Source of the DNA: Thiomicrorhabdus marina
GTDB lineage: Bacteria > Pseudomonadota > Gammaproteobacteria > Thiomicrospirales > Thiomicrospiraceae
Reading direction: 5' to 3'
DNA: 64,000 nucleotides
NCBI RefSeq assembly: GCF_017571465.1
Contig: NZ_JAGETV010000012.1
Location: 1 to 64,000 of the forward strand
This document shows positions 20,507-41,934 of this stretch, piece by piece. How positions within the stretch are numbered: the first letter of the stretch is position 1; each line of letters opens with the position of its first letter. The translations under genes were made by a program, and so were the position numbers. The notes under the pieces were generated by a model. That model had not been told where the DNA came from and did no database searches. It saw nothing but the letters and a program-made list of their open reading frames with translations.

Positions 20507-21184
20507 CTAAAACGGCACGTCGTCGTCGTCAAAGTCATTTGGCGCGTAAGCCGGAGCAGGTTTTGGCTGCATTGGTTGATTACCACCCATAGGCTGATGT
20601 TGCTGTCCAGCCATGCCTCGGTTCTGCTGTGGTGCTTGCTGCATACCACCCATGTTATTGCCGCCGAAGCCGCCCTGATTTTGACCCATCGCTGGTTGCT
20701 GACCCATACCTTGGTTACGCTGTTGAGGCGCTTGGTTTTGCATGCCTTGGTTATTATTCATACCGCCGCCAAAACCGCTGTTTTGTTGGAAACCACCACC
20801 AGCGTTGTTATCAAAGCTCGCATCGCCGCCACGCCCCGAACCGCCGCCAAGCATCTGCATATTACCGTCAAAACCACTTAGAACCACTTCTGTAGTGTAA
20901 CGGTCTTGACCGTTTTGATCTTGCCACTTACGCGTCTGCAATTTACCTTCTAGATAAACTTGCGAACCTTTTTTCAGATACTGCCCGGCGATTTCTGCCA
21001 ACTTGCCGAAAATCGACACACGGTGCCATTCGGTTTTCTGCTGCTTCTGACCTGTATTTTTGTCATTCCACTCTTCACTGGTCGCAACGCTTAAGTTTGC
21101 AATGGCGTTACCATTAGCGGCATATTTTACGTCCGGATCTGCGCCTAGGGTGCCGACCAAAATTACTTTGTTCACGCCCCTCAC
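20507..21184 (-). CDS. ssb: Single-stranded DNA-binding protein
   Basis: Essential ssDNA-binding protein for replication and repair. The OB fold spans residues 1–110 ([39 protein letters not shown]), followed by a Gly/Gln/Asn/Met-rich linker. The conserved acidic tip DDDVPF recruits partner proteins. The 225-aa length is long because of the linker. The start is GTG (GTG AGG GGC GTG AAC), unlike the ATG CGA GGC GTA AAC relic preserved at 41934, because the integrative element joins at this point. The 11-codon leader ORF's TGA overlaps this GTG. Natural neighbours are the MFS gene and uvrA, now 20 kb away. Confidence 0.96.
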
Positions 21185-21191
21185 ACTATAC
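21155..21191. other. Attachment site and left terminus of the integrative element (ssb side)
   Basis: Core AATTACTTTGTT (21161–21172), extended to the left as GACCAA, is repeated at 41904–41922 with one extra base. It is followed by the terminal motif CACGC–N9–TATAC (21173–21191), the inverted counterpart of which sits at 41886–41904 with the same 9-base spacing. The core lies inside ssb codons 5–9. Confidence 0.75.
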
Positions 21192-21216
21192 CTACCTTTA
21201 AATTATTGTTTTTCAT
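21181..21216 (-). CDS. 11-codon leader ORF overlapping the ssb start
   Basis: ATG at 21216 opens an 11-residue reading frame ([11 protein letters not shown]) that stops at TGA (21183–21181), overlapping the ssb GTG start as GTGTGA. An AAGGA ribosome-binding site lies about 10 bases upstream. The layout suits translational coupling of ssb and would stand in for the lost overlap with the upstream MFS gene. It is too short for any homology argument, so the function is inferred from geometry. Confidence 0.35.
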
Positions 21217-21239
21217 AACATTTTCCTTATTTTTTAGAA

Positions 21240-21277: not shown

Positions 21278-21904
21278 CTAAAATTTACCTTGAAAGTGAT
21301 AAAGAGATGAGTGGCTAATATTTTGTAATAAAGAGTTTAACTCTTTCTCAACTGACTTAATTTCAGCAGTGCCTCGATATTTGACCTCAAGCCTTTCCAC
21401 AATTTTTTTTGCTTGAGAATAAGCTCGAGAACTTTGATGAACTGTTCTGAGCAAAATCGCATTTGCTAAATAAACCTGCAATTCTAATTTTTTTACTAAA
21501 TTATTATCAATACTTTCAACAGACTTTAACCTTTTTAACTGACTTTCTTGCTCTACTACAGCATCAGTAAGCCTAGAATTTTCGTCCTTTAGACTGTTAT
21601 TCTCTAATCTCAATTGCTCAGGGCTCATCGCTTTACCTGATGCATTTTTTTTCTTTGTAGGAGAGCTTTTTGCATCATCAACGGCATTCTTAATATCCCT
21701 TAGAAGGGAAGCATAAACATACTCACTAGTTTGCTGATCTTTTTTATAAAGAGTAGTCTTTCCAACTCTAGATCCATCTCTAAACTTTGCTCCATTTATT
21801 ACATCTTTTTGAGAAAAAGGCTTATTAGCATCAATTAACACGTCCAAAGATCTTTTAATCGCCTCTTCAAATGAGCCTTTGACGGAAGAAACAGTAGCAT
21901 CCAT
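21278..21904 (-). CDS. Coiled-coil accessory protein of the integrative element (SRAP/TnpC-like)
   Basis: A 208-residue soluble protein. The N-terminal 85 residues look like a small DNA-binding helical domain (SFEEAIKRSLDVLID, VGKTTLYKK). They are followed by a basic linker (SPTKKKNASGKAM) and a coiled coil (about 95–135, LRLENNSLKDENSRLTDAVV). Position, size and coiled coil resemble Tn554 TnpC and the srap gene of strand-biased circularizing elements, small factors that assist recombination or set its direction. It begins exactly where the upstream recombinase gene ends (zero spacing), so the two are translationally linked. Confidence 0.6.
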   Translation of the reverse strand: MDATVSSVKGSFEEAIKRSLDVLIDANKPFSQKDVINGAKFRDGSRVGKTTLYKKDQQTSEYVYASLLRDIKNAVDDAKSSPTKKKNASGKAMSPEQLRLENNSLKDENSRLTDAVVEQESQLKRLKSVESIDNNLVKKLELQVYLANAILLRTVHQSSRAYSQAKKIVERLEVKYRGTAEIKSVEKELNSLLQNISHSSLYHFQGKF

Positions 21905-23695
21905 TCACACATCCTCTTTCATTGAATTCAAAAGCCTTTGCGCCCGCCGCATACCATTCTTAGCCGCAGTTCTTAGTTCAGAATTCTTTGTTGTCTCGAA
22001 GGTATGTTTGTGAGCATCATATCTTCTTTGCCAATGCTCTTTTCTGTCAAGCGGAACACCAAAGTTGGGACAGTTGGAGCACAATTCTTCTGAACGATTA
22101 GAATATTCAGGCATGCCATTCGTTCCACATCTAGCTCTTGAAGCTCGCGATAAATTCATAAAACAATAACCATCAGCAGCAGGCATAACAATATAGCCCA
22201 ACTGCTCAACAAGACGCTCAGCAATAACTTCAGCCTTAGAAACGCCTACCACTTGCACAGATTTTTTTATTAAATTCTGGTACTTTTTAATTGCACGAGA
22301 AAAACCAAAGTAAAGATTTTTCTCACCTAGCAAAGCTTTTTCTAGTACATCTTTAGTCAATATTTTTAATTCCTCAGGAATGAATTCCCATACAGCTTCA
22401 TCAGAGGTATACGCTTTTGTAAATTGTTGACCATTGTGAAATAGAAGATCAGCCAGATATTCCATATCTCCAGTCTCAAACCTCCAAGCCCACATTAACG
22501 AAAAAAATCTTCTAAACATATGTGGCCTTAAAGTACCTTCAGCATAACCAGCATCCTCAGCAAAAACATCTAGCATTCGATATAAAACATCTTCGGCTAA
22601 TTCAACTCTAGTACTCTTAGATTCTATAGAATGACCATCTCCGTGCAAAAGCCTTATAAACAGATATTTTGATCTATGTTTCTCTCTCATAGGAGCTGTT
22701 AGCGAAACAACAATAGACAAAGCCTCTTTTAATTCTTTTACAACGGTTCTATCAGTCTTCTTACCGGTTGAAGTTCTTGCAGTTTTAAAAACTCTTCCTG
22801 TTAGTAAATCTTGTCGACCGTCTAGAAGCATTTCTGTTTCACCAAGTTCAATAAGGCTCATTTCATGTTTACGCATTGCTGAAAGGGTCAATAAAACCAA
22901 AATAGAAGATGCATATAAAACATCAACTTTGCGCTTTATTTCTCTAAAGGTTTCTGAATACTTATCTCGATATATTGTGTATGAATTACTCTTGCCACTA
23001 TGTTTTAAATGTAAATAGTACTCATAGCGCTGCAAAACACCTTTACTGTCGGATATTTTTCTCAAAGCATGGTTTAACAAACCTAATCCAACCTTAGGAT
23101 ATAAGGTATCCGTATGTCCATCTGGTTTTGAGATTCTTTTTGCTACTTTACTCAAAGGGTTAATAGCTTCGGAATAAGGATCAAATTGTATTCCATTACT
23201 TAAGAGTGGCGAATTTAAATAAAACAGTCTGCATATTCTGAGCAACTCAGACACATATGAATAACTAGCATTTTTCTGCTCAATATAAACCTCCAAAGCA
23301 TCGACATCTTGTCTGGTTATATCCCTAGGAGTAACTACCTCCCTCTCAATAGCAAAGAATGAAATTACAACTCTAACATTCTGAACAAAGGCTTTTTTGG
23401 ACGAAGAAAATAGATCGTGATTTTCAAAATAATTAACAGAAAAATCTTTTCCAAATCCTTTCCAAATACCCCAAATAACTTGTGCAGAGGAATCTTCAAT
23501 ATCGAATACTGGCTTCCAATTAAACTTTAATTTACTATCTGATTCTGCATCGTTATATGGCTTGAACTGCCACTCATCGTCAACTATCGAGGAGTTAACC
23601 AGCCAGTTGACTGTCGGAACTATTTTTTTCTCAAGCTTCTCGTCAACCAAAGAGGGAATTATTGGTTCAACAGTATCCAAAATAGATTTCTTCAA
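21905..23695 (-). CDS. Tyrosine recombinase, IntB-like, with Cys-rich C-terminus
   Basis: A 596-residue site-specific recombinase. The catalytic domain shows the family residues in order: Arg in LLTLSAMRKHEMSL, a Lys region KTARTSTGKKTDR, His-x-x-Arg in RPHMFRRFF, His in LLFHNGQQF, and the nucleophilic Tyr in FTKAYTSDE. A long C-terminal extension (after about residue 450) contains a possible zinc-binding cluster (RARCGTNG, then EELCSNCPNFG) followed by a basic helix (MRRAQRLL). It is larger than ordinary phage integrases and forms a unit with the downstream srap-like gene. Its partners intA and tfp are nearly 15 kb away at the opposite end, with IS debris immediately upstream. Confidence 0.8.
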   Translation of the reverse strand: MKKSILDTVEPIIPSLVDEKLEKKIVPTVNWLVNSSIVDDEWQFKPYNDAESDSKLKFNWKPVFDIEDSSAQVIWGIWKGFGKDFSVNYFENHDLFSSSKKAFVQNVRVVISFFAIEREVVTPRDITRQDVDALEVYIEQKNASYSYVSELLRICRLFYLNSPLLSNGIQFDPYSEAINPLSKVAKRISKPDGHTDTLYPKVGLGLLNHALRKISDSKGVLQRYEYYLHLKHSGKSNSYTIYRDKYSETFREIKRKVDVLYASSILVLLTLSAMRKHEMSLIELGETEMLLDGRQDLLTGRVFKTARTSTGKKTDRTVVKELKEALSIVVSLTAPMREKHRSKYLFIRLLHGDGHSIESKSTRVELAEDVLYRMLDVFAEDAGYAEGTLRPHMFRRFFSLMWAWRFETGDMEYLADLLFHNGQQFTKAYTSDEAVWEFIPEELKILTKDVLEKALLGEKNLYFGFSRAIKKYQNLIKKSVQVVGVSKAEVIAERLVEQLGYIVMPAADGYCFMNLSRASRARCGTNGMPEYSNRSEELCSNCPNFGVPLDRKEHWQRRYDAHKHTFETTKNSELRTAAKNGMRRAQRLLNSMKEDV

Positions 23696-23741
23696 ATTAG
23701 TAATCCTGTGTTTTTAGCCATTAATCTGATCATTAAAGCGA

Positions 23742-23978
23742 TTACTCTTCAGCAGGTGAGAGTTGCTGATTATTCGAGTGGAGATGTTTGGAATTGTAAA
23801 ACATTTCGATGTAATTAAAGATGTCTTGTTTCGCTTCAGCGCGAGTTTTATAGACTCTTCGCTTAATGCGCTCGCGTTTCAGCAGTTGGAAAAAACTCTC
23901 TGCAACCGAATTGTCGAGGCAGTTCCCTCGACGGCTCATGCTGCCTTCTAGTCCATTCACTTTGGGAAGTGGCTCCAA
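23742..23978 (-). pseudogene. IS3-family transposase fragment (OrfB C-terminus)
   Basis: A 78-codon remnant containing the end of the DDE domain: MSRRGNCLDNSVAESFFQLL, with the catalytic Glu, then KRRVYKTRAEAKQDIFNYIE and YNSKHLHSNNQQLSPAE. The domain's two Asp motifs and all of OrfA are missing, so it is inactive. It lies back to back with the second IS remnant (23998–24833), which seems to have cut it. Confidence 0.8.
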
Positions 23979-23997
23979 TCGAGACTAGTGTTGACCT

Positions 23998-24833
<836 letters not shown>

Positions 24834-25289
24834 GAAGTTAAGTTTGAGAAAGAGCAATTCAATTGTGTGAATCACACACTTAATAGCTCAACCTTTCAGC
24901 AACTCACGTATATGACTCTCAGAAATTCGACCTTGAATTGAATTAGTTCAGCCCCTACCTGACACATTCCGAAAACCATCTTTGGCATAGTCAGTCAGTT
25001 CCAACACTTCCATTTTTCACATAATTTCTTTTATATTTGTTCTAGTAGTAATAACGAAAATATTCTTTGAACCGATCTCTTAGCTGTTACCTAGTCAAAC
25101 TTGATTTTTATGATCTAAAGGGAAATAATGAATCTTGGTTCAAAGGTGCGGACCTATTTTTCACCCATTTTATAATGGTAAAGCTATCGCTTGCGATGCG
25201 CATCTGGCTTATCAAGGCAAACACAATTTACAACATAGTTGATTTTCATGCTTCATGTGAAAAAGGGGCATAGTAAAAGGAAGTTAATT
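24834..25289. other. 450-base region without a supported gene
   Basis: AT-rich sequence between the IS remnant and the 264-aa gene. A 68-codon frame at 25067–25273 has no RBS or recognisable content. On the minus strand, 24952–25017 could encode a 21-residue peptide (MEVLELTDYAKDGF…) that looks like a decayed gene fragment. Nothing else is supported. Confidence 0.4.
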
Positions 25290-26084
25290 ATGAACATCCC
25301 TCGCTACACATCCAATGGATTTTCTCATAAGTCTTTGTTAGACAGAGCTAGACAATTCCGGAATGACAATGAATCCCACCTATCTTTACACCAAGCTAAA
25401 AATCAAATTGCTCAAGATGTCGGCTTTAAAAACTGGAAAATATTGGAAAAAGAGCCTACAAATAGAAATAGAGACTCTTTTTATTATGACGCTTTTTCTG
25501 ACAGGGAAAAGTATCAAGCCAGATATGAGGTTTTTCTTGAAGAGTCTGGAGTTGAGCAGTCTATGGACGCCTATAGAGACTTTGTTGTACAAGAATTTCA
25601 ACGTGAGTCATCCAATAAAGAAAATAAAGTAGAAGTTCAACTTCTTCAAGAAATAATTGACCGATTGCAAGCATTTGGTCCTGAATCCTTATTGCCACAA
25701 AACTTTCCTGAATATTTACTTATTAAAGTCGGTGATGCTTTTGAATCTTTCTTTTCGGAGGATGAAGAAGCTTCTACATCTACTGTACCTCCAGAAATTA
25801 TTATCTTGTTAAATGCTGCAATAACATCTGAAAAGAATAGAAACTGGAATGGTGAGATGACAATATCTGAGCAAAAGTTTATGGACGATTTAGATGCATA
25901 TCGACTCTATCTTAGCTTTGAACGTTTTAAGCGCTCATTAGGGCTAGAGTATTCACCTCCAACAATATCAAATATTTTCGATCCAAACCATAAGGTAGAA
26001 ATAAAGACAAATAAGGAATTTTTTGAAAAAGGAAAGGAAGTCTTTGGCGATAATCTTTCGCCTGAATTTGAATATCAGATTTAA
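25290..26084 (+). CDS. Hypothetical cytoplasmic protein in the element
   Basis: A 264-residue soluble acidic protein. The start is set at 25290 (RBS AAAGGAAG, eight bases before the ATG); an upstream in-frame ATG at 25239 lacks one. The N-terminus (SLLDRARQFR, then SLHQAKNQIAQDVGFKNWK) resembles a short helical motif seen at the start of many plasmid- and island-encoded hypothetical proteins. The middle and C-terminal parts (SEQKFMDDLDAYRLYLSFER) are helical with no recognised catalytic residues. It is transcribed alone on the plus strand; function unknown. Confidence 0.55.
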   Translation: MNIPRYTSNGFSHKSLLDRARQFRNDNESHLSLHQAKNQIAQDVGFKNWKILEKEPTNRNRDSFYYDAFSDREKYQARYEVFLEESGVEQSMDAYRDFVVQEFQRESSNKENKVEVQLLQEIIDRLQAFGPESLLPQNFPEYLLIKVGDAFESFFSEDEEASTSTVPPEIIILLNAAITSEKNRNWNGEMTISEQKFMDDLDAYRLYLSFERFKRSLGLEYSPPTISNIFDPNHKVEIKTNKEFFEKGKEVFGDNLSPEFEYQI

Positions 26085-26205
26085 ATTTCAGCTGCCTGAC
26101 AAAGTCTCCCAGAACTTTTCATACAATTTAATTCGTTTAATTGTCAGCAACCCTTCCCACCCTATCCTGAACCTTAGTGACAATTCAGGATTTGGGTGAG
26201 AGCCA

Positions 26206-26240
26206 TAAAAAAATCCAGTACCGAAAACGAGACTGGATTT
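26206..26240 (-). terminator. Terminator of the minus-strand envelope gene cluster
   Basis: AAATCCAGT–N12–ACTGGATTT preceded by an A-run on the plus strand, about 70 bases beyond the stop codon at 26313. Confidence 0.7.
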
Positions 26241-26312
26241 TAACTTTCTCAACTAAACAATGCTTAAGTGAACGGCACTATGCCAACAGTAGCCTTTTCT
26301 GAAAAGTAGTGC

Positions 26313-27155
26313 TTAGGATGGCTGCCACATATAGGCAACGCCAGATTTGGCATACAGTCGCACCTGTATCCATCGCCCTTCACTGTTTTCAAGAACGGTA
26401 TCCTTCCCATCCCATCCAGAGCGAGGATTTAATTCGTGCAACTTAAATGAAGATTTTGACATGGAAGAATACACTCCAACTTTCTTGCCAGAATAATTTC
26501 TCATTTTAGCTTCACCTACTACCTTAGATGTACGCCCATAAAGAATGTCATCTGAAAGGTTTTTTGGCGAGGCATTAATCACCAAGCTCTTTAGATCCGC
26601 TATCTTTCCGCCACGCAAAAATTTGCCACGGTTATAATCATAGTCATACCAAAGCTTCAGGCCTTTGTCTGTTTTAAAAAACAGATAAGGAATTCTCTTT
26701 GGACGACCAAATCCGGCTGCTTTAAGGAGTTCTCCTCCTACAGCGTTAGCTATGTTCGCATTTACAGCAGAAGCCCTGGCGATTCCGGTGTTTGCATACG
26801 GAACCGATTTTTTTCTAAACTGAAAAGCTGCCTTAACTGATTCGATGTCGCGTCTTTCTAGAATTTCCGCAGTATCACCAGTAAACACCCATCGGAATTG
26901 CACGCCTGGGTTTTTTAGCTCTAATGAGCTATAGAAAAGCGCTTTTGATAATGGGCAATGCGTGTAGACACGAGCGTAAACAATTTTATTGGAATTAAGG
27001 TCACCGGTTTTTACAAAGACTGTTGAGTCCAGTGCCTTCAAAATATCTTCTTTGGCCTGATCTCTACTTGATTTTGCCAAAGCAATGCTTGGCATAACCA
27101 AAGGTGCGCCAGCGGCAACCCCAGCTAATTTTAAAAAATCTCTTCGATTCATCAT
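26313..27155 (-). CDS. Tat-exported protein with thioredoxin-fold-like and SH3-like regions
   Basis: A 280-residue protein with a twin-arginine signal (MMNRRDFLKLAG, then a hydrophobic stretch ending ALA). The mature N-terminal part (VYARVYTHCPLSKALFYSSL, then VQFRWVFTGDTAEILERRDI) resembles DsbC/DsbG-type thioredoxin folds but keeps only one Cys of the CxxC pair. The C-terminal 60 residues (GKKVGVYSSMSKSSFKLHEL, then WIQVRLYAKSGVAYMW) look like a bacterial SH3 domain. It follows the 86-aa and lipoprotein genes on the same strand. Tat export suggests folding or a cofactor before export; the role is unknown. Confidence 0.6.
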   Translation of the reverse strand: MMNRRDFLKLAGVAAGAPLVMPSIALAKSSRDQAKEDILKALDSTVFVKTGDLNSNKIVYARVYTHCPLSKALFYSSLELKNPGVQFRWVFTGDTAEILERRDIESVKAAFQFRKKSVPYANTGIARASAVNANIANAVGGELLKAAGFGRPKRIPYLFFKTDKGLKLWYDYDYNRGKFLRGGKIADLKSLVINASPKNLSDDILYGRTSKVVGEAKMRNYSGKKVGVYSSMSKSSFKLHELNPRSGWDGKDTVLENSEGRWIQVRLYAKSGVAYMWQPS

Positions 27156-27185
27156 TGAATACTTCTCCGTTATTTTAATGAAGTT

Positions 27186-27446
27186 TTAATGCAAAACCCT
27201 GTCATCGGGTTGCTTGTTTTTTCGCTTTGAAAATTCGCTCGAAAAAGCCTTGATTGCTCTGGTCAGTTCTTTCTTAATTTCAAGAAGACCGTTGCCGTTA
27301 ATTGGCTTATCGTCCAGCACTACACCAATCTGAGAATGCAAATTCCCGCTACCATCCTTGGACTCTTCATAGTGATAAACCATGAAGGCATTTAACACTG
27401 AAAGGCCCTGCTTCTTAACTAAATCCGCAAAGAAGACAACGGCCAA
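27186..27446 (-). CDS. Small hypothetical protein
   Basis: An 86-residue protein between the Tat-exported protein and the lipoprotein, 30 and 22 bases from its neighbours. It starts with a mildly hydrophobic segment and ends in a basic helix (SSEFSKRKNKQPDDRVLH). The start is uncertain: an internal Met (MVYHYEES) would give a shorter protein. I do not recognise it; its place in the cluster is the main support. Confidence 0.45.
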   Translation of the reverse strand: MAVVFFADLVKKQGLSVLNAFMVYHYEESKDGSGNLHSQIGVVLDDKPINGNGLLEIKKELTRAIKAFSSEFSKRKNKQPDDRVLH

Positions 27447-27468
27447 GTAAAATCTGAGCTAGTAAGCA

Positions 27469-32086: not shown

Positions 32087-32089
32087 ATT

Positions 32090-35000
32090 CTACTCCGTGA
32101 ATGCAGGGTTTGATTTTGCCAATAAAGCCTTCGCTTTATCGGTAAGAATCTCAATGTCGACATCCACTTCTTCAGTGCCGCCTAACGCGTATTTTGATAT
32201 GTATATAGTGCTGTCTACAGCTTCCTTGAATACCTGTTCTTTTGATGCGGGTGTCGCAACAATAACCTGTAACCCCGTGTCATTCATAAACTCAATAGCA
32301 CTATGCAGATTAGCCTCATCCAATCGATTAAATGCTTCATCCAACAAGGCAAGACCAGCACTTCCGCCATTGCTATTTAAAGTACGCCAAGCGTTCGCAA
32401 GCGAAGCAGCAATAGCAACGTAAAATGGGGATTGCTTTTCGCCCCCAGAACCAGTTTTTAACAGGTTGCTCAACTTGGTTTTATTGCCAGTTTTATGATT
32501 TGTGACTAATACATCATAGGTGAAGTATTTACGGTAATCCTGAATGTCGGATGCATTCTCTTGTCCCGCTTCAACCAATAAATCAATTTGCTCTTTAACC
32601 TCCTCCGGCATCTGATCAAACAGGTCATTTGAAGACGTTGAAAGGGCTTCAGGGCTAGAACTGTTGATATAATCGATAAGTAATTTAAATTCTTTCTTTG
32701 CGCTTTTGGTGAAACGATAGATTTCTGAATGAAACTCTTTGTTCTCCAAAGCTCGATTAATGGAATTGAATTGCTGTGCTTGAAAACCAAACGCTTCTTT
32801 CAACCTGTTAAGGACGTCTTTACGGAAAGTCTCGCTAATGTCAGCACGAGCTTTTTCTGAGGCTTCACGGTATGGCACTAAGTTCATCTCATGAATGGAA
32901 TCTATGTGGATTTGAACCAACTCCATAGCTCGATGTAAGAACGTTTTATTTAGTGGTGTAATATCGCCGGTATCAAATTCGGTGTTTCTGGAAGCATAGG
33001 CGTCAATTAAATGTGTGGTGTCAGCTTGTTTGCTCGATGCAGATTTTTCAGCAGACGTTCGACTCGATTCAAGCATTTCAACCGTATCCTCTTCATGAGC
33101 TTGCTGAAACTCATCATTAAGTTGAACATCAAAAAACTCGTCATCTTCAATATCACGCTGGGCTTTCAACAAGGAGTCCACCTGTTTTTCTAAATCATCA
33201 ATCTTTTCTGAAAGATATCTCGCGGTTCTAAGCCCTTCGGATTTTACTTTTTTGTGTACACCCTTTGCTTCGATGGACTCAGTAATATGAATTTTTAACA
33301 CCTCTAATTCTGACTTTAAATCTTCCAAATGACTTAAATCGAGCCTATCAAGGTTATTTGACTTGATACTGATATTTGATTCTATAGACTGAATTTTCTG
33401 GGCTATTTTTTGAGTCAGTAATGTTCCGGATTCTTTCTCATAAGATTGAATCGAGGCAAGACTGGTGTCGATGGTTTCTAACCCTTCTCCATCTTTTGTC
33501 AGGCGCAGTACCTTTTCTGCATTTTGGTCACGCTCATACTTCCAGATTCTTAGATTTTCACTCTGGTCCTTAACCAGTTTTAAATCAGGGAATAGCTTCT
33601 TACTTGAAATACCGGTTGCAGTAGCGGTCATGCCATCCTGAGTAATAGCAAAATTCGAATGCTTTAACTCTTCTTCACTGTCGACCAGCTCAAGGTTACC
33701 AAGACGCTTGTGCAAATAGGCTAAAGCCAAATCGTTATCAGAGTGAACTAGTGTGGCGGCTGTATTTTCTTTGAATTTATGTAACCAATCTTGCGCTCTG
33801 GAAACTTTTACAACTGTACTACCAAAAAGCTTATGCTCTTTTTTGTATTGGCGGTATAACTGAATCGCCTTACGCTCAAGGTCAACTGGAACAATAAGCG
33901 CTTCAACTTCCTTACCCAAAAAAGCTTCGATAGCTGGTTGCCAATTCTCATCCAAGCATTCAGTAATATGGCAAATTGGTTCAGCCTTAATGCCATGTTC
34001 GGCAAGATGCATAATAAGGTTTTGCGTCGGTCGAGATAGTGGTGTTTTCCCACTACTGGAAACGGATTGAATATATCCTTGATACTTTTCAACTTCCTTC
34101 TCGGCATTAGCTAAGTCGCTATAAGTGGTTTTCTTTTGTCTTTTGAGTAGAAATTGAATCTCTGGTAGTTTATCCACTATCTTAGAAATTAACTCGTCGA
34201 CCTTTGTTCTGGATTCAGCTTTATCTATTAATGGAGATAACTCTTGCACCCATCCTTTAAAAGTCTGGTCTCTTATGATTTCTACATTGGCATCGCAAAG
34301 TGTTTTGAATAAATTACGAATCTTTAACAGCTTCTGACCTTGAACCCCTAAATCTTCTTGAAGCTTTTCAATGTCATCTTCAAGTCTCTTTTGTTGCCTC
34401 GCTAAGTCATCGTCTTGAATCTGTGCTTGTAAATTATCACGGTATTTCTCTTTGGCTGGTATCTCAGAATTCAGTTTTCTGAATGAGCGACAAGCATTGA
34501 CATAATCTTTGACCTTGTCTTTGATTTGCTCTCGTAAGTCATCAACTTCTGAATACAGTGATTCCACTTTCTTTTCTTGGATTAACCAGCCAAGGTAGTT
34601 AGATTTTTTTAAAAGCCTCTCATAGCTGCGTGCATTTTTAGCAATATCTTCCAAATCATTGATTTGCTGCTCACAGGTTTTGATTTGCGCCTCTATTTCC
34701 TCATATTTATTTTTTGCATTAACCAATGAATTGATGTCGATGGGTTTTGCCTCTAGTATGAAGCTTTCGACAAAACGAGAGATATCTTTGACCTCTTTGA
34801 GACTAATCGACTTAGACAAAGAATCACGCAAAACCTCTGGGTCTATCCATTGGTTTAACTCTTTTCTTGGGCCAATCAAGCGAACCATTTCATTTAAAAA
34901 TTTAGCGGAATTGTTCTCGTAATGAGCTTCAACACCTGAGATAGACAGTCGTTGCTTCACTATATCAAAGGGATGTACTCTATAGCTTTTGTCGGACTCT

Positions 35001-35446
35001 ACATAAATAAAGTCTTCGACGTTCAAGGGACGATTGCACTCAACCATTCCCCGCATTTTAAAATCGACTTTCTGTTCATCTGCACGCGCTTCAATACCCA
35101 CAAACAAATTTACATAGGTATCGATTACTTCATTGTGGAACACAAGGCCAATATATGAAATGCATTCATCGCGCTTACGGAAGTTTCTTGAATTTCCAGA
35201 GCCATCATCCGGTCGAAAGTAACCCAGGCAGTATGATTTGATATCACGTTCACTTCGGCTCTCTGACGAACTAGCATTAAGCTTAATGTAACGCTGGTTA
35301 CCGCCAAACAGAACCGTTTGAATAGCATCGATAATGGTACTTTTTCCGGCCCCGTTTTCACCAATGATCGCAACATTTCCATAAAACTGTATTTCCTGTG
35401 GTTTGTACAAGAACCAGTTAACCAAAATAACTTTAGTGAGTTTCAT
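32090..35446 (-). CDS. jetC: Wadjet SMC-like ATPase JetC
   Basis: The MukB-like motor of Wadjet that extrudes DNA loops. At 1118 residues it has Walker A GENGAGKST at 29–37, a long coiled coil (about 240–900) interrupted by a hinge region around 450–560, the ABC signature SGGEK near residue 1000, and Walker B ALLDEAFNRLDE near 1035. The start is placed at 35446 (MKLTKVILVNWF), which follows the RBS CAGGGGAACAG and overlaps the jetB end by 14 bases; an ATG at 35470 would only add eight residues. The protein looks complete. Confidence 0.92.
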   Translation of the reverse strand: MKLTKVILVNWFLYKPQEIQFYGNVAIIGENGAGKSTIIDAIQTVLFGGNQRYIKLNASSSESRSERDIKSYCLGYFRPDDGSGNSRNFRKRDECISYIGLVFHNEVIDTYVNLFVGIEARADEQKVDFKMRGMVECNRPLNVEDFIYVESDKSYRVHPFDIVKQRLSISGVEAHYENNSAKFLNEMVRLIGPRKELNQWIDPEVLRDSLSKSISLKEVKDISRFVESFILEAKPIDINSLVNAKNKYEEIEAQIKTCEQQINDLEDIAKNARSYERLLKKSNYLGWLIQEKKVESLYSEVDDLREQIKDKVKDYVNACRSFRKLNSEIPAKEKYRDNLQAQIQDDDLARQQKRLEDDIEKLQEDLGVQGQKLLKIRNLFKTLCDANVEIIRDQTFKGWVQELSPLIDKAESRTKVDELISKIVDKLPEIQFLLKRQKKTTYSDLANAEKEVEKYQGYIQSVSSSGKTPLSRPTQNLIMHLAEHGIKAEPICHITECLDENWQPAIEAFLGKEVEALIVPVDLERKAIQLYRQYKKEHKLFGSTVVKVSRAQDWLHKFKENTAATLVHSDNDLALAYLHKRLGNLELVDSEEELKHSNFAITQDGMTATATGISSKKLFPDLKLVKDQSENLRIWKYERDQNAEKVLRLTKDGEGLETIDTSLASIQSYEKESGTLLTQKIAQKIQSIESNISIKSNNLDRLDLSHLEDLKSELEVLKIHITESIEAKGVHKKVKSEGLRTARYLSEKIDDLEKQVDSLLKAQRDIEDDEFFDVQLNDEFQQAHEEDTVEMLESSRTSAEKSASSKQADTTHLIDAYASRNTEFDTGDITPLNKTFLHRAMELVQIHIDSIHEMNLVPYREASEKARADISETFRKDVLNRLKEAFGFQAQQFNSINRALENKEFHSEIYRFTKSAKKEFKLLIDYINSSSPEALSTSSNDLFDQMPEEVKEQIDLLVEAGQENASDIQDYRKYFTYDVLVTNHKTGNKTKLSNLLKTGSGGEKQSPFYVAIAASLANAWRTLNSNGGSAGLALLDEAFNRLDEANLHSAIEFMNDTGLQVIVATPASKEQVFKEAVDSTIYISKYALGGTEEVDVDIEILTDKAKALLAKSNPAFTE

Positions 35447-36107
35447 GCTGTTCCCCTGTAGGTGCGTCATCGAGATTGTCAGCTACTATGTCTGCTTCAA
35501 TAGCCTCTGAGTCGGCCTCAACACTGTCCCTTTCTCTCAAATTTTTAACAAACGAGGCTGCAAAATCTGGCGTTACCAATACTTCGATAGTTGGCAAAAT
35601 GGTAATGTCAGGCAGACCGGTTTCTTCATTCTTTTCGGATTCCACTCGAATTATCGATTTTCGCTGAAAGAGTTTAATTAAGTCATAAAAACGTGTGCTG
35701 GTTTCGTCAAGGTCAGAACGTTCGGAAAGCTCTTTGTACTGAGCAATTAAATGACTTCCGGTAATGGATATGGAGCCATCTTCATTTGAACGGTACTCTT
35801 TCTCCAAGTGATAGATGAGCCGAAGTGTAAACATAAGCACGCTTTCACTAATGCTCATTTTTGCCACAAAATGGCTTGGCGTGTAGCCGATATAACCATG
35901 CTCGTGGCTGTGGTGAAACTTATAACCGAATAACTGCAGACCACTTTCAAAGATTCCTGGGTAACGGTCGATTAAGTTATAGAATCGTTTATCTCGGGAG
36001 TGCGACCGGAACAAGAACTGCCTTTCCTGAAGAACCACAAACGCTTCTTGCAGCTCTGCCTCGTCGATTCGTTGATTGGCAAGTAGGTTTCTGACTTCAT
36101 TAAACAT
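35433..36107 (-). CDS. jetB: Wadjet MukE-like subunit JetB
   Basis: A 224-residue winged-helix protein (DUF4194/MukE type) that binds the kleisin-like JetA and the SMC heads. The N-terminus is MFNEVRNLLANQRIDEAELQ. The body has the pattern YTPSHFVAKMSISESVLMFT with tandem winged helices, and the tail is acidic (DSEAIEADIVADNLDD). The start at 36107 overlaps the jetA stop (ATGTTTAA); an earlier in-frame start at 36161 would lie within jetA. Placed between jetA and jetC as in other Wadjet operons. Confidence 0.82.
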   Translation of the reverse strand: MFNEVRNLLANQRIDEAELQEAFVVLQERQFLFRSHSRDKRFYNLIDRYPGIFESGLQLFGYKFHHSHEHGYIGYTPSHFVAKMSISESVLMFTLRLIYHLEKEYRSNEDGSISITGSHLIAQYKELSERSDLDETSTRFYDLIKLFQRKSIIRVESEKNEETGLPDITILPTIEVLVTPDFAASFVKNLRERDSVEADSEAIEADIVADNLDDAPTGEQHETH

Positions 36108-37548
36108 GAGCACTGTTCTCTTTTTTGGTAATTGTGAAAGCATTACAAAGCATGTATTCATGCTGTATTAGCCCAACACTCTTACGAGTGAATTCATATT
36201 GAGAGAGGGATTTCCGATAACGCGAATGGAGTTTTCCAGGCTCCATAGCTAGTCTTCGAGCATTTGAAAAACCGATTAAGTCCTCCACTTCTGTTATGAG
36301 AACTTCCTGTGACGTAATTTGGACTTTTGGGTAATTCTCTGAAAACAGAGCGTTAAGCCAAGCTAAGAATTTCTGGTCACTTAGTGAGACACGTTCGGCG
36401 TAATCTCTTCTGGCCTGTATACGTGCTTTTTGCTCCTCAGGTATGGCAGAGCTAAGACTGACTGCTTCTTGCTTTATTGGTGGTCTTTTACGCGGAATGC
36501 GACCAACACTATCGGATGACACTGCCTTAAACACCGGTAATGGGCTGTCGATTACTTGTCCATCATCCACTTCCTTAAGAAGGCTAATTGCTTCTTCAAA
36601 CAACTGGCCAGCATTGGTTGGCGTTCTACGCTGATATTTAATAGATTCATTCACTTGCCTTAATAGGCGATCGTGACTAATATCGATTTTCGTAATAAGG
36701 TGTTCTGTGTTTTGAAAGACGCTTCTTATCAAATGAATGTTCTTGATAAGCTTTTCCTCAGCATCTTGCTTAAGAAGATTTTCATGCTCACTGATTGCCT
36801 CAATCAATCGATTTCTTATCTCAGGGGTATGTTCGATTTCAAAGAGCTTCTCAATGATTTCCGTTCTATATCTGAATGGGTGATTATGGCCCTTAATGGC
36901 GTTGTAATCAGAGAAACTTGAGCCTTGTATAAACCCCTCAAAAAACAACTTAACCTTGTCTTTGAGTTTTACATAGGATTTAAAATCTTGGGAAATATCA
37001 GTCAGATGCAATGCAAGGTTTTTCATCTGTTTGCCTAGGTTCCGGGAATCTTTAGTCGTCTTGGTAAGGGTTTGAGCTAAATCGATGACCGTCGCCCCCT
37101 TGCTGGTCATCAAGAAGTTTATGGCGTTGTATATTGCCAGTACATCACCGCCTACCTCTCCGGTTCCATAGCTTTGGGCATTTTGTAGAAAGTCGACAAG
37201 AATTGAAATCCTTGGTGACATGTAAGCTTCTTTCTTGACACCATCCTTACGTACACTTATCCAGCCGGACTTTCTTAAAACAAAGTAAATATAATTTGTG
37301 CTGGCCTTAAGTTGTTCCACTGTTCTCAGTTCAAAATCATGATCTTCTTCGACCGACCAGCTTTGGTCTTGGATGTACCCCTCAATGAAGTCCTTTATTT
37401 TAGATATCGATATTGAGGTTTCCAAAAAGTCTGCGTACTCACTGAAAAATGTATCATGCAATTCGATTATCAAATCTAGGTAACGCCGTCTATTCTGACT
37501 GCCTAAAGGCACAAATATTTTGTCGGGATAATGATCAAAGAAATGCAT
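36100..37548 (-). CDS. jetA: Wadjet MukF/kleisin-like subunit JetA
   Basis: A 482-residue protein at the head of the operon. It has N-terminal winged-helix features (YDYFDHYP-like MHFFDHYPDKIFVPLGSQNR, LDLIIELHD), a helical middle (DISQDFKSYVKLKDKVKLFF, matching the JetA pattern) and a basic C-terminal part. It bridges the SMC dimer in the complex. I place it as JetA by gene order, length and these features; the Wadjet subtype is not assigned. It is read from the promoter at 37560–37589. Confidence 0.8.
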   Translation of the reverse strand: MHFFDHYPDKIFVPLGSQNRRRYLDLIIELHDTFFSEYADFLETSISISKIKDFIEGYIQDQSWSVEEDHDFELRTVEQLKASTNYIYFVLRKSGWISVRKDGVKKEAYMSPRISILVDFLQNAQSYGTGEVGGDVLAIYNAINFLMTSKGATVIDLAQTLTKTTKDSRNLGKQMKNLALHLTDISQDFKSYVKLKDKVKLFFEGFIQGSSFSDYNAIKGHNHPFRYRTEIIEKLFEIEHTPEIRNRLIEAISEHENLLKQDAEEKLIKNIHLIRSVFQNTEHLITKIDISHDRLLRQVNESIKYQRRTPTNAGQLFEEAISLLKEVDDGQVIDSPLPVFKAVSSDSVGRIPRKRPPIKQEAVSLSSAIPEEQKARIQARRDYAERVSLSDQKFLAWLNALFSENYPKVQITSQEVLITEVEDLIGFSNARRLAMEPGKLHSRYRKSLSQYEFTRKSVGLIQHEYMLCNAFTITKKENSAHV

Positions 37549-37559
37549 AAGCTCAGTTC

Positions 37560-37589
37560 TTTATAGCAAATAAGTATTAAATGTATCAA
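37560..37589 (-). promoter_or_regulatory. Promoter of the jetABCD operon
   Basis: On the minus strand TTGATA (37584–37589), 18-base spacer, TATAAA (37560–37565), with the jetA ATG 12 bases further on. The spacer contains AATACTT (37572–37578), one of three AGTATT/AATACT words in this divergent region. Confidence 0.6.
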
Positions 37590-37631
37590 ATAAAAACTCA
37601 TAATACTATCTATCACCTAATAAAAAGTATT
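37572..37631. promoter_or_regulatory. Repeated AGTATT/AATACT words, candidate WYL-regulator operator
   Basis: Three copies: AGTATT at 37573–37578, AATACT near 37602–37607 (inverse) and AGTATT near 37625–37631. They form two inverted pairs with spacers of about 18–24 bases. The first lies within the jet promoter spacer and the last within the -35 region for the divergent regulator (TATAAT at 37648–37653). This is the geometry expected for a repressor controlling both directions. Inferred, not demonstrated. Confidence 0.4.
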
Positions 37632-37679
37632 ACCAACATTATTTTGCTATAATTACAAAAAACCTAAAAAGAAAAATAT

Positions 37680-38456
37680 ATGTCAGCGACAGATAGATAC
37701 GACTACATACTACTTAAAGCTTTATGGGAAGGCGGCGTTAAGCGCCAAGAGTTGATGGATCGATTTGAAATTGGACCTGCGCAAGCAACAAAAGACTTCA
37801 GCAAAGTTAAATCCCTATTTCCAGAAGCCATGCGCTACAGTCCTGCCGACAAACAAAATATAGATGTAAATTGTCGTAAGTACCTTGGCTCCAAAACCTT
37901 TGATGATTATTTAAAAATCACTGGTAAGTATGATTTTATCCAGCAACTTAACAACGTCCATTCAGACCTGCCTGTTGAGCTTTATCGCAAAATTCATACA
38001 GCGATAACGAATAAATTCGGCATTCAATTCCAGTATCACTCAATCAATAATCCAGAAAAAAATTCTGTACGGACAGTCTACCCTCACAATTTGATTAACT
38101 CAGGTTATCGGTGGCATATACGAGGATGGGAACAAGAAAGCGGCGAGTTCAAAGACTTCAATGTCATGCGCATGTACGGGGACATCCAACTTGAAAAAAA
38201 CAAACAACCAAATGCCTCTATTAATAATGACGTCAAATGGAATACTTATAAAACAGTGTTTTTAATACCCAATCCAAAATTGAATCCAGACCAGAAAGAT
38301 ATAATTTCTATGGACTATGGAATGAAAAATGGAGTGCTAACTGTAAACTGCCGTGAAGCATTATTTCTTTACACAATGCACACATTTTTAATTACAGACT
38401 TTTCTGAATCTCCAAATGAACACCAATACCTCAGCATTGCAAAGAAGATAAGTTAA
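37680..38456 (+). CDS. WYL-domain transcriptional regulator (CapW/BrxR-like)
   Basis: A 258-residue protein. The N-terminal winged HTH (residues 5–75, YDYILLKALWEGGVKRQELM, then FEIGPAQATKDF) is followed by a WYL-type domain (about 110–175, IQFQYHSINNPEKNSVRTVY, then NSGYRWHIRGWEQESGEFKD) and a C-terminal WCX-like region. This order fits the CapW/BrxR family of defence-system repressors, which bind nucleic-acid ligands through WYL and release DNA on infection. It is divergent from jetA across 130 bases with shared operator-like words, so it is the likely regulator of Wadjet. Confidence 0.75.
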   Translation: MSATDRYDYILLKALWEGGVKRQELMDRFEIGPAQATKDFSKVKSLFPEAMRYSPADKQNIDVNCRKYLGSKTFDDYLKITGKYDFIQQLNNVHSDLPVELYRKIHTAITNKFGIQFQYHSINNPEKNSVRTVYPHNLINSGYRWHIRGWEQESGEFKDFNVMRMYGDIQLEKNKQPNASINNDVKWNTYKTVFLIPNPKLNPDQKDIISMDYGMKNGVLTVNCREALFLYTMHTFLITDFSESPNEHQYLSIAKKIS

Positions 38457-38594
38457 TGATTTTGGATGCCTAAATTTTAAGAATTAAAGCTAACCACATA
38501 ATACGAATTGTAAAGTCGCCATACTTTACAATTTGAACTTCCCCTGCATAATTTTTCCGTTCATGTTTTGATTCAAGATCGACTCATTAATATA

Positions 38595-40682
38595 TTAATC
38601 CAAATACGGTAACTTTATATTCGCAGCTATTTTTTGAGCCTCATGAAAAATTCGCGTAGAAGTCATGCTCAGCAAAGCCTCATACTCAGCCAAAATAATC
38701 AACCAATGATTTGACCACCGTGCAGGGTTAGAAATTATCAATCTATCCTTGTCAGTAAGAATTTTTTCTCGATAAGCAATCCACTCCGCGACAATATTAG
38801 GCTCAGCGAGCAATGTACGAACTGCACTTTTATCTTTCAATTTTTCTATGTGTCGTTTCGCTCTTTCTCCAATAAACTCTTCAAAATTCTCCTCTTCCTG
38901 CTCAAGTGCTTGCAAATCAACATTATTTAACGCCTGAGAAACTAAGAAATTCTGAAAATCAAACGCTTTCTTGGACAATAATGCAGCCGTTTCGGTTCTT
39001 GCTACATAATCTTTGGTTGTTGAGAAATTTGCATGGTTTAGTTTTCGCTTTACTTGACCAACAGACGCACCTTTCAGAACATCAATTACAACATGAGTAG
39101 GCCTAAAATTTTGTCCCGTAGCAGTCCCTTTCCCCCCTATCAAAAGCTTTATTAAATTTAATTTTTCAGAGTACTGTTTTAATTTTATTCGAACCCAATC
39201 TGAAGGAGTCCCATCATCATAAGTCGAGAATTCGTAAACACCATTCTTAGTTTTCTCACGATTGATGTGCCCAAATATCGACACGTTCTCAGCATCAAAA
39301 AAATTTTTCGCGAAACTTAATTTGGCCTTAGTTTGATTAAAACGATAAATATAGTCTTTCAACAAAACCACCAAGGGGTCTGAGTCTTTCACATCAACAT
39401 CCACTCCCGCTCCTCTTTCTTTACCCATGAAAACATTAGTTAATCCATGTTCTATCGATTTAGTCAATGAGGTAGTTAATGTGTAAAAAAAAGCAGTGTC
39501 AACGTTTGGAGCAAGAGCACGATGAGACAACAAAGCCATTAATAATGGCCTTTGAATATAACGACCTGGAATAAACGCAGATTGAACTCTTGATACCGTC
39601 CACCCTCGGCATTTTAAATAATCCACAACACCTTTCGGCCATTTTTCGGAGTTAGGGATGCAAAAACCGAATTGGGAGTAAAGAATTTTCAAGGCTAATT
39701 CTATAGACTTAGGATTAAGATCTTTCCAAGCGTAACTTTGGATACTTTTAAAGGCATTTTTCTTTGCGTCAGGCAATGATTTACTATATTCAACAAACAA
39801 AGAAGCTGAGTTTTGCAACTCTTCTCTTATATCAATAGACTTCCAGCCCCGAGTCTTTAAAAAATCATAAGTCCCCTTAACCCAATTGTCGACGGACTTA
39901 TTAGAAGCATCATTGAAATACAAAATTGCAAAGCAATCTTTCTCGTTCCTGAAATCACCATATGCTTTTGAAAAATCATCTACCCCCTTGAGAAACTCCT
40001 TTTCGCTATCAGAGGTACCCTTAATAATGGACTCAATCCACTCTATATCATCTAAAGCAGCACTAACTTCTTTTAAAGATTTTTCGTAGATAAAGTCCAT
40101 TACCGTTTCATTAAAAAACAATGTTATGGCTTCTGCTTGGTCTAATTGATATTCAGATTCAATAAACCGAATCGATTTTGAATATTCATTCAACAAAACT
40201 TCAAATGACGATGTTTGCCTCTGTGCGATTTCCGAGAAGCTAGGAATCGGCTTTTTATCTGTGTTTTTGAAGTTTTTAGGTAAAGTCTCATTTTGTACAA
40301 CAGAGACAGAAATTAAATGTTTAACAAACCCCTTGCAAGCCGAAAACAACTGACTTTTGGTATTCACCTCTGATTGTGGGCTCTTGTCTAAAAAATCCTT
40401 AAAACCTTTTAACGATTGAGCGCTAACTGCTCCATGTAAATTTGCGACATATCGCAAATAACGAAGAACTCTATTTGCAACTTCTCTTTTTGATTTCTGC
40501 GGTCTTAGGAAGATATTCAATTCTTTTAATATCAATTCACCATCTTGAATATTCATCAAATATGGTGCCACAATAGGGTTACCCTCAGTTCTTATCTCCC
40601 AGCCATTAGGAACTTCTAACGAAAGTAACTCAGCACGCTTTTTCTTTTTAATAGGCGAACGTACAACTCTACGGGTTTTCAC
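38595..40682 (-). CDS. Degenerate tyrosine-recombinase-fold protein (TFP/TnpB-like)
   Basis: A 695-residue protein. The C-terminal part has a recognisable recombinase pattern (FRPTHVVIDVLKGASVGQVK, then KLNHANFSTTKDYVARTE) with a late His and a Tyr. The first catalytic Arg is not visible, and the His of the HxxR box is replaced (QNFRPTH), so it is unlikely to be an independent catalyst. In Tn554-like and strand-biased circularizing elements the second gene is of this size and type and works with the first recombinase. Its ATG overlaps the intA stop by four bases (40679–40682). Confidence 0.7.
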   Translation of the reverse strand: MKTRRVVRSPIKKKKRAELLSLEVPNGWEIRTEGNPIVAPYLMNIQDGELILKELNIFLRPQKSKREVANRVLRYLRYVANLHGAVSAQSLKGFKDFLDKSPQSEVNTKSQLFSACKGFVKHLISVSVVQNETLPKNFKNTDKKPIPSFSEIAQRQTSSFEVLLNEYSKSIRFIESEYQLDQAEAITLFFNETVMDFIYEKSLKEVSAALDDIEWIESIIKGTSDSEKEFLKGVDDFSKAYGDFRNEKDCFAILYFNDASNKSVDNWVKGTYDFLKTRGWKSIDIREELQNSASLFVEYSKSLPDAKKNAFKSIQSYAWKDLNPKSIELALKILYSQFGFCIPNSEKWPKGVVDYLKCRGWTVSRVQSAFIPGRYIQRPLLMALLSHRALAPNVDTAFFYTLTTSLTKSIEHGLTNVFMGKERGAGVDVDVKDSDPLVVLLKDYIYRFNQTKAKLSFAKNFFDAENVSIFGHINREKTKNGVYEFSTYDDGTPSDWVRIKLKQYSEKLNLIKLLIGGKGTATGQNFRPTHVVIDVLKGASVGQVKRKLNHANFSTTKDYVARTETAALLSKKAFDFQNFLVSQALNNVDLQALEQEEENFEEFIGERAKRHIEKLKDKSAVRTLLAEPNIVAEWIAYREKILTDKDRLIISNPARWSNHWLIILAEYEALLSMTSTRIFHEAQKIAANIKLPYLD

Positions 40683-41830
40683 TTAAAGCTCTCGTCATAT
40701 CTAGCAGAGGTATATGGTTCTAAAGTATCGTCGCTTGCATGCCTACTGACAGTTCTTGCTACTGCTTCAGCTCTTCTAACTCCAGCAGCATCCAACGCCC
40801 TTAATAACTTAGTAATAGCATGATGCCTTAATCCGTGAGTCCAAACTCTTTCATCTTCGGTTAAATCACCAAATTCAACGGCTTTCAGAAACGCTCTTCT
40901 GACAGAATTGGAGAACCCTTTACTTGAGAACATATCTCCATTTACATTTAAAAAAACATAAAGAGGTTCTTTGTAAGCTTTGTATTGCTTCCTGGCTTTT
41001 TTCTGGCCAACATTTACTCTATAGGGTCGAAACAGTTCTATATAATCCCAAGTCTTAAGCAAAAGGGAATGAGATACTGGGATATCAGCCTCTTTTCCTC
41101 CTTTCGTTGTCCCTAAATGCAAATAAACATTTTCTTCTTCAGCCAGTTTCTTTTCGACGGTTTCTCGACCTGGCAAATCACTAATCTTTAAGTGGCAGAT
41201 TTCTTTGGCTCTTAACCCCCCCACTTTGCCATACCCAACCATCAGTTCAAAAATTGAGTTAGCTAATTCATCTTTGGGTCCAAATTTAATAATCCTCTCA
41301 ATCCAGTCTGATCTCGGTACGATTATCGTTTTATGCTTGACTTTATTCTTTTTCGTAAGGGGATGTTTAATTTTAGACTTTCTATCAAAAGATATTCGAA
41401 CCTTGTACTCAGGAGTTTCCCCTATCAAATTATAAAAATACCCATTGGTTTCTAACCAAAATAAATAATTTAGAACCGACCTGAGGACTGATACTGCGTA
41501 GGATTCTTTATTTGTGTATTCAACTCTATCAATTATTGACTGCTTATATTCTGCTAAATAGTCATCATCAACCAATAGCATACTTTCAAGGTCACCATCA
41601 ATCTCAAGCTGACTCAAAAAATCCACTAGATGCTGGGCATAGGTTTTCAAAGAGCTAAGTTCTACACTTTTGCCCTTATCTAAGAAATAATGCAAGGATA
41701 AGAAATGAACATTTTTATTTTCGGTAAGAATTAAGGGGAACCCCTCTACCGAATCAGAACCGTAAACTTTAGCTGATGTTGTGTACTTTAGATATGCCAC
41801 ATAAAACCTGCATTCAGTGCCTTCTAACAT
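40679..41830 (-). CDS. Tyrosine recombinase, IntA-like
   Basis: A 383-residue integrase. The SAM-like N-terminal core-binding domain spans about 50–150. The catalytic domain (about 180–383) contains Arg in GYGKVGGLRAKEICHLKIS, Lys in TTKGGKEADIPVS, HxxR in WTHGLRHHAITKLL, His in VARTVSRHASDD, and the nucleophile Tyr in LEPYTSARYDES. All six catalytic positions are present. First gene at the right end of the element. A TATAAT at 41838–41843 ends eight bases before the ATG, so a leaderless transcript is possible. It overlaps the downstream tfp-like gene. Confidence 0.85.
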   Translation of the reverse strand: MLEGTECRFYVAYLKYTTSAKVYGSDSVEGFPLILTENKNVHFLSLHYFLDKGKSVELSSLKTYAQHLVDFLSQLEIDGDLESMLLVDDDYLAEYKQSIIDRVEYTNKESYAVSVLRSVLNYLFWLETNGYFYNLIGETPEYKVRISFDRKSKIKHPLTKKNKVKHKTIIVPRSDWIERIIKFGPKDELANSIFELMVGYGKVGGLRAKEICHLKISDLPGRETVEKKLAEEENVYLHLGTTKGGKEADIPVSHSLLLKTWDYIELFRPYRVNVGQKKARKQYKAYKEPLYVFLNVNGDMFSSKGFSNSVRRAFLKAVEFGDLTEDERVWTHGLRHHAITKLLRALDAAGVRRAEAVARTVSRHASDDTLEPYTSARYDESFK

Positions 41831-41885
41831 GAATCTGATTATAGTGGCATATAAGCTTTCAATAAAGTAGAAGTATAGCTAAGCA

Positions 41886-41934
41886 GTATAATTTATTATG
41901 CGTGACCAATAATTACTTTGTTTACGCCTCGCAT
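41886..41934. other. Right terminus of the element with relic of the ssb start
   Basis: The right terminus is GTATA–N9–GCGTG (41886–41904), the inverse of the left end. Beyond it lies the duplicated core GACCAATAATTACTTTGTT (41904–41922). Read on the minus strand from 41934, ATG CGA GGC GTA AAC AAA GTA ATT followed by four codons and TAA is the original ssb start (MRGVNKVI then IGHA), overlapping the end of the MFS gene. This shows where and how ssb was interrupted. Confidence 0.8.

Follow-up and report, generated by a model that had tools for sequence, protein, structure and literature searches.

The locus and its four recombination genes

We analysed a stretch of 64,000 nucleotides from Thiomicrorhabdus marina (contig NZ_JAGETV010000012.1, positions 1–64,000; hereafter the window), which is part of contig C3 in a draft assembly of 82 contigs and 2.83 Mb. 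The window carries an element of 20,744 bp (21167–41910) inserted in the 5′ end of ssb, with the recombination genes intA and tfp at one end, intB and srap at the other, and 14.9 kb of cargo between the tfp stop and the intB start (23696–38594). All four genes lie on the minus strand, intA and tfp overlapping by 4 bp and intB and srap having a gap of 0 between them. An earlier note on this DNA, made from the sequence alone, had described four open reading frames (ORFs) of 383, 695, 596 and 208 amino acids (aa) on one strand, one pair overlapping by four bases and the other back to back, around about 15 kb of cargo, and the ORF coordinates agree with this description.

The genes were compared with those of strand-biased circularizing elements (SEs) and with 66 loci from a species-genome collection, which are a sample found by one short peptide pattern from the IntB alignment. 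Loci are called GInt-like here by their structure, not by comparison with the original gin operon (ginABCD, DSM 4166), and a further group with the gene order tfp-intB-small gene-intA, for which we found no name, is called the rotated-order group (Methylophaga, L020; Massilia, L017; Comamonas, L019; and others). Held-out profiles were built from 48 contiguous loci, excluding the window and its closest relative (L015, from Marinicella pacifica), with 37–38 distinct sequences per gene and sets made by gene position, and were run on 164 proteins. The four genes are as follows.

40679–41830, minus strand: intA-like tyrosine recombinase, 383 aa (Pfam Phage_integrase 3.6e-7; held-out GInt-like gene-1 profile 5.8e-25)
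38595–40682, minus strand: tfp-like protein, 695 aa (38% identity to L015 tfp; held-out gene-2 profiles 4.3e-4 for GInt-like loci and 6.7e-5 for the rotated-order group)
21905–23695, minus strand: intB-like large tyrosine recombinase, 596 aa, with a C-terminal Cys cluster (39% to L015 IntB; held-out gene-3 profile 5.6e-23)
21278–21904, minus strand: srap/ginD-like small protein, 208 aa (30% to L015 srap; profile-profile comparison with SE Srap 73%; single-sequence matches weak, at 0.089 and 0.03)

The catalytic set RHRHY is complete in both IntA (R207, H332, R335, H364, Y373) and IntB (R275, H392, R395, H420, Y429). In the Tfp-like protein, whose catalytic boxes had been noted as degraded, the HxxR box is indeed lost, with RPTH where it is expected, but the LNHA...TT..Y box is retained (H550, Y559). 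At an E-value of 0.01, intA was the only one of the genes recognised as a recombinase by Pfam, NCBIfam and PHROGs, and the gamma-mobile-trio, also considered as a candidate, did not appear as a family name in NCBIfam for the proteins tested. The intB start codon is TTG, directly behind insertion sequence (IS) debris, while srap is followed by ~111 bp of AT-rich DNA up to the element edge. An AlphaFold model of Tfp from a two-row alignment had a mean predicted local distance difference test score of 36 and was not used.

Element borders and restoration of ssb

The features at the two borders are listed from the intA end to the srap end.

41917–41934, minus strand: ssb remnant, the first six host codons (ATG CGA GGC GTA AAC AAA), adjoining the gene of a major facilitator superfamily (MFS) transporter; codons as in the ssb start of several same-genus empty sites, e.g. 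L082–L084
41911–41916, minus strand: attL 6-bp spacer GTAATT, identical to the spacer at the other border
41884–41910, minus strand: terminal motif C, intA-proximal end, an imperfect inverted repeat with C′
21167–21191, minus strand: terminal motif C′, intA-distal end, its outermost part re-encoding ssb codons 1–6
21161–21166, minus strand: attR 6-bp spacer GTAATT
20507–21184, minus strand: restored ssb, with a GTG start and codons 1–6 from the element and the body from the host

On the plus strand the spacer reads AATTAC at both 21161–21166 and 41911–41916. Read on the minus strand, the left border passes from host GCGTAAACAAA through GTAATT into element ATTGGTCACGCATAATAAATTATAC, and the right border from element GTATAGTGTGAGGGGCGTGAACAAA through GTAATT into host TTGGTCGGC. 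Motifs C and C′ match at 9 of their first 11 and 16 of their first 25 positions, and for each of these two lengths 4 of ~41,460 placements on both strands of the element, besides C/C′ itself, match C equally well; the resemblance exceeds chance. The start of ssb is present as a 23-nt direct repeat, 87% identical (21161–21183 and 41911–41933). MFS and ssb are neighbours on the same strand in 26 of the 29 loci from other genomes, with an alignment gap of −13 to 142 bp, and all 26 are from the same genus; in L107, L109 and L110, ssb was not found within the fetched locus. The GC fraction in 1-kb steps is 0.34–0.42 between ssb and the MFS transporter gene, compared with 0.48 directly to the right and 0.42–0.46 to the left.

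The element codons GTG AGG GGC GTG AAC AAA replace ATG CGA GGC GTA AAC AAA, by which the start becomes GTG and the other changes are synonymous, and the original six codons are stranded at the opposite border. Judged from the sequence, the element end supplies a substitute start and the first six codons, so that the SSB reading frame survives. We regard the element ends as well supported because the same 6-bp spacer lies beside imperfect inverted repeats, MFS and ssb are adjacent in the 26 same-genus loci, and ssb codons 1–6 are re-encoded. The view in the earlier note of a single element with one att-like border pair and an SE/GInt-type four-gene module, two genes at each end, is borne out, with a small shift of its borders from 21172 and 41905 to the ends supported here, a few bases outside. 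Integration would have occurred by crossover within the 6-bp spacer inside the ssb start.

Likewise, in two rotated-order loci, L017 (3417–5011) and L020 (4544–6376), thyA is cut at the same point (profile 178/266) and a full thyA then lies beside the recombination genes; these elements too seem to restore their own disrupted target.

Relatives of the four genes

Window intA and intB each ranked first with their held-out profiles. Window tfp and srap each came third, the former after the tfp of L015 and SEs, the latter, at 0.089, after the srap of SEs and L015. In profile-profile comparison, the values with GInt-like genes were 98.8% (intA), 99.3% (intB), 44.3% (tfp) and 1.2% (srap). The comparison with SE genes, which had been proposed as a check, gave 86.5% (intA), 97.3% (intB), 0.3% (tfp) and 73.0% (srap). 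SE and GInt-like genes themselves pair one to one at 97.3–99.6%. For the rotated-order group the hhalign probabilities were 99.1% for intA, 85.0% for tfp, 99.8% for intB and 38.9% for the small gene against srap. By these values, homology to the four-gene modules of GInt-like loci and SEs, gene by gene in the same order, is clear for intA and intB and weak for tfp and srap; provisionally, intA, tfp and intB are nearest to the rotated-order group and srap is nearest to SEs. In the IntB tree, the window and L015 grouped with the rotated-order group (support 99/95), a placement that is provisional given the long branches, and a quick IntA tree gave the grouping with the rotated-order group a support of 91, below that tree's own mark for firm support.

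The module of L015 has tfp, intB and srap contiguous, the tfp-intB gap being 2 bp, and 16 bp of contig follow srap; L015 Srap has a sub-threshold match to DUF6262. Among plasmids, tblastn matched intB in 8 records and intA in 16, the 8 all being within the 16, and in the four records inspected one contiguous four-gene operon contains both matches, as its genes 3 and 1. Searches with tfp returned the window alone, whether in plasmids, in genome contigs or in the genomes of the order (62) and of the class (369), and L015 tfp had no match in plasmids. A single-sequence IntB search of the 369 class genomes found only itself, an IntB profile search added two loci beyond the single-sequence search, and a profile of window and L015 IntB found L015 only in 229 genomes. 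No close relatives of tfp or intB were found in four scans of viral contigs, and no intB relatives among phages. The window element would belong to a divergent lineage of which M. pacifica holds the only other member found.

The genome of the window also holds a second multi-recombinase operon, which is contiguous (L135; G000:C1, ~42170–51530). It encodes proteins of 413, 764, 930 and 169 aa and, in addition, a VPA1267-family protein and a RecD2-like helicase; the rotated-group IntB profile finds the 930-aa protein at 2e-12. In L023 (111–3303), gene 1 of a GInt-like operon is interrupted by three adjacent RIT-like tyrosine recombinase genes.

Origin of the split

Remnants of IS3-family elements lie beside intB, where the earlier note had placed them at 23742–24833; we found them at 23748–24833, with a short extension aligned by eye.

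23701–23991, minus strand: truncated IS3-family element with an ISSod17-like transposase C-terminus (92% to a same-genus IS over 23748–23991; 23701–23747 aligned by eye)
23998–24833, plus strand: decayed IS3-family element with both terminal repeats, an internal deletion and two frameshifts (76–79% to IS copies in three family genomes)

The ISSod17-like remnant lacks its terminal 11 bp, judged by eye, and stops ~5 bp short of the intB start codon. An inversion mediated by IS was rejected, as intB-srap has the same orientation as intA-tfp.

Across the comparison loci, tfp adjoins intB in 66 of the 67 non-window loci that could be assessed, several of which are near-copies so that the independent number is smaller (five further loci were not assessable), and in 7 of 8 inspected SE loci, drawn from 41 plasmid records with an SE tfp match, giving 73 of 75 overall. 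Both exceptions hold an IS at the junction, ISL3 in L031 and IS3 in L117. No further element with the two gene pairs at opposite ends, as the earlier note had proposed to look for, was present among the 75 assessable loci, and a split module goes unmentioned in the titles and abstract openings of the papers found in searches of the open literature on SEs, GInts and related elements.

The split is most likely secondary, a normally continuous gene set having been opened at the tfp-intB junction, because the module of L015 is contiguous there, adjacency holds in 73 of the 75 loci, the exceptions carry an IS and IS3 remnants adjoin the intB start. Of the two options the earlier note had left open, a later insertion near the IS3 remnants is therefore favoured, and a naturally split lineage is unsupported by the comparison, in which one close relative is known. 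Taken as a whole, we consider the locus to be probably a GInt/SE-superfamily element, with two tyrosine recombinases whose catalytic sets are complete, one catalytically degenerate recombinase-fold protein and one small partner, whose module was opened secondarily by an IS3-associated rearrangement. As suggested by the comparison and the IS remnants, tfp and intB would have been adjacent in the ancestral module, and the ~15 kb of cargo, comprising a type I Wadjet system and other genes, would now occupy the opened junction.

Several points weigh against this reading. The homology of srap and tfp depends on weak single-sequence scores, there is no recognisable IS end on the tfp side of the cargo, and the cargo may have come in independently of the IS at the split. 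Furthermore, L015 has no intA upstream of tfp but an Abi_C defence gene in that place (L015:173–526); an intA search of the Marinicella genome returned nothing, an empty answer that is uninformative there. Since this is the one close relative, and its contig is without intA, the lineage could be one in which the placement of cargo varies.

In the two exceptional loci, which are unrelated members, the IS between tfp and intB spans L117:6820–7997 (IS3) and L031:6949–8253 (ISL3); the tfp-intB junction may be a recurrent IS site.

Mobility and competing explanations

By the model that SE and GInt work suggests, all four proteins would bring the element ends together and, by strand exchange within the 6-bp spacer, make a circle. 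There srap and intA would lie ~197 bp apart (111 + 6 + 80), and intB-srap-attS-intA-tfp would form one continuous cluster, the halves being separated in the integrated state only. The integrated element has its intA-tfp half on the downstream side of the original MFS-ssb leader, and its intB-srap half reads toward ssb. Mobility of the element is plausible because the four ORFs, the catalytic residues and both borders are intact and a circle would rejoin the halves within ~200 bp.

The strongest competing explanation, which we hold to be possible but doubtful, is that the element is dead, the split having uncoupled tfp from intB translation and abolished circularisation, with the intact ORFs reflecting a recent event. 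In the work on SE-6283, knockouts of intA and intB are described as losing attS, which was not restored in trans, and the authors' reading given there is that an intact intA-tfp-intB operon is needed (PMC10214605). By analogy, this failure of complementation would count against mobility, as would the TTG start of intB directly behind IS debris, and the 92% identity of the outer remnant to a same-genus IS suggests that the event may not be very old. However, the four ORFs, their catalytic residues and both att borders are intact, and the breakpoint lies just short of the intB start, so that IntB and its L015 counterpart have N-termini of equal length.

Alternatively, the split could be native, with cargo normally loaded between tfp and intB, a terminal position of the two halves that is inherent to the lineage, and IS remnants that came later and are incidental. 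In its favour, the recombination genes and borders are intact beside decayed IS copies, as ~760 bp of coding sequence left from the IS show a large deletion and two frameshifts where 5,658 bp of recombination genes show none, a comparison which presumes that the IS broke in place and which we use solely as support for maintenance of the genes. In L015, likewise, the place just upstream of tfp is taken by a defence gene and not by intA, and a circle would make the module contiguous. Nonetheless, we think a native split unlikely, as the tfp-intB gap in L015 is 2 bp, the 75 assessable loci include no like case, the IS remnant ends ~5 bp from the intB start and two other loci carry an IS at the same junction.

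It is also conceivable, although we would give it little credence, that the split is a working state, in which the operon exists only in the excised circle (intB-srap-attS-intA-tfp) and is parted by integration with cargo inside the module, one half then depending for its transcription on the ssb leader of the host and the second half feeding into ssb, so that the family would conserve a circular and not a linear gene order. The linear rotations seen are 1234 (GInt-like loci and SEs), 2341 (L016–L020, L030, L031, L072) and 4123 (L026), and the window read across its att junction is rotation 3412; in L062, intA is on the opposite strand, which does not fit a circular gene order.

Secondary opening of the module also accounts for the locus better than two final alternatives. 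That intA-tfp and intB-srap come from different mobile elements flanking the cargo is very improbable: the distance between the pairs is all that speaks for it, the closest relatives of tfp and intB-srap are adjacent in one operon in L015, contradicting the separate element with its own att sites that had been entertained, and the sole att-like pair found brackets all four genes. An assembly error joining unrelated sequences at the IS remnants has a similarly slight chance of being correct, since the IS region turned up only once in the element's own genome and is degenerate, and the element ends match each other and the host site, despite the draft state of the 82 contigs and IS being usual points of misjoining.

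Cargo genes

A type I Wadjet system lies complete in the cargo (JetA, JetB, JetC and JetD), accompanied by a divergent WYL gene (PADLOC, Pfam) and by six further ORFs.

37680–38456, plus strand: WYL-domain regulator (Pfam WYL 9.1e-10)
36100–37548, minus strand: JetA, Wadjet type I (PADLOC JetA1 6.3e-57; Pfam JetA 8.1e-48)
35433–36161, minus strand: JetB, Wadjet type I (PADLOC JetB1 5.3e-25)
32090–35470, minus strand: JetC, Wadjet type I, SMC-like (PADLOC JetC1 4.3e-184)
30923–32086, minus strand: JetD, Wadjet type I (PADLOC JetD1 1.7e-41)
25239–30859, no strand assigned: other cargo ORFs of 281, 280 (twin-arginine translocation signal), 86, 136, 508 and 212 aa (ORF calls)

For the six other ORFs, no match assigning a function was obtained with Pfam, with NCBIfam for two of the six or with PADLOC for four. 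Between the 508-aa and 212-aa ORFs, 29762–30087 contains three diverged direct copies spaced ~130 bp apart, for which Tandem Repeats Finder gave no array.

Comparison with known systems

The rotated-order group provides the best or near-best profile partner for window intA, tfp and intB. Its genes are contiguous whereas those of the window are split, and it has no cargo between tfp and intB save the ISL3 in L031. One member, L026, has the order small gene-intA-tfp-intB, its small gene scoring 1.9e-25 with a profile that excludes its own. Window srap, in contrast, is nearer to SE Srap (73%) than to the small gene of this group (38.9%).

With GInts (Tn6571 family) the window shares site-specific insertion flanked by imperfect direct repeats (23 nt, 87%), and in the account of PMC5385486 circular forms and imperfect direct repeats are reported for GInts, several of which sit in ssb. 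The ssb insertions described there are at the gene end, and the layout given is a contiguous ginABCD with cargo from ginD on (PMC5385486). The window element instead uses the 5′ end of ssb and its cargo divides the operon between genes 2 and 3, unlike the GInt layout of a contiguous 5′ operon, cargo after ginD and a short AT-rich 3′ end. Compared with GInt-like operons, window intA and intB are clearly and tfp weakly homologous in order, with srap at 1.2% to gene 4.

Likeness to SEs lies in the order intA-tfp-intB-srap on one strand, the 4-bp intA/tfp overlap as in pAQU1, and terminal inverted repeats, imperfect and set around a 6-bp spacer, with attB divided between attL and attR; inverted repeats around a 6-bp spacer are the border arrangement described for SEs (PMC10214605). 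The restoration of ssb also has a parallel in SE-6283, which is reported to carry a bcp homologue where bcp is disrupted (PMC9345347). The SE arrangement of a contiguous intA-tfp-intB operon at the motif C end differs from the window, where 14.9 kb separates tfp from intB. At the sequence level, window proteins had no meaningful BLASTP similarity to the SE proteins of pAQU1, window Tfp was not among the six best matches listed with a profile of 6 SE Tfp sequences, and window Srap scored 0.03 with an SE Srap profile of 7 sequences. By BLASTP and these small profiles, window Tfp and Srap thus fall outside the SE sequence clusters, for which the published criterion is BLASTP and PSI-BLAST. Among the SEs described in PMC10214605, one with inverted srap is the only atypical orientation reported, and the BLASTP networks in that paper separate SEs from GInts.

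Tn554 is described as having two tyrosine recombinases, a small protein and a 6-bp footprint (PMC10214605), and by this description it resembles the window element, but TnpA-TnpB-TnpC is without a tfp counterpart whereas the window has a fourth, Tfp-like protein.

Profile comparison joins SEs, GInt-like operons and the unnamed rotated-order group into what appears to be one homologous superfamily. The window contributes an insertion target to it, the ssb start, which the end of the element itself repairs, and it shows the anti-plasmid Wadjet type I system borne on such an element. Furthermore, SE work has been read as requiring an intact intA-tfp-intB operon for circle formation, and the window element, having intact genes and att borders yet a 15-kb break in the operon, offers a natural test of that claim.

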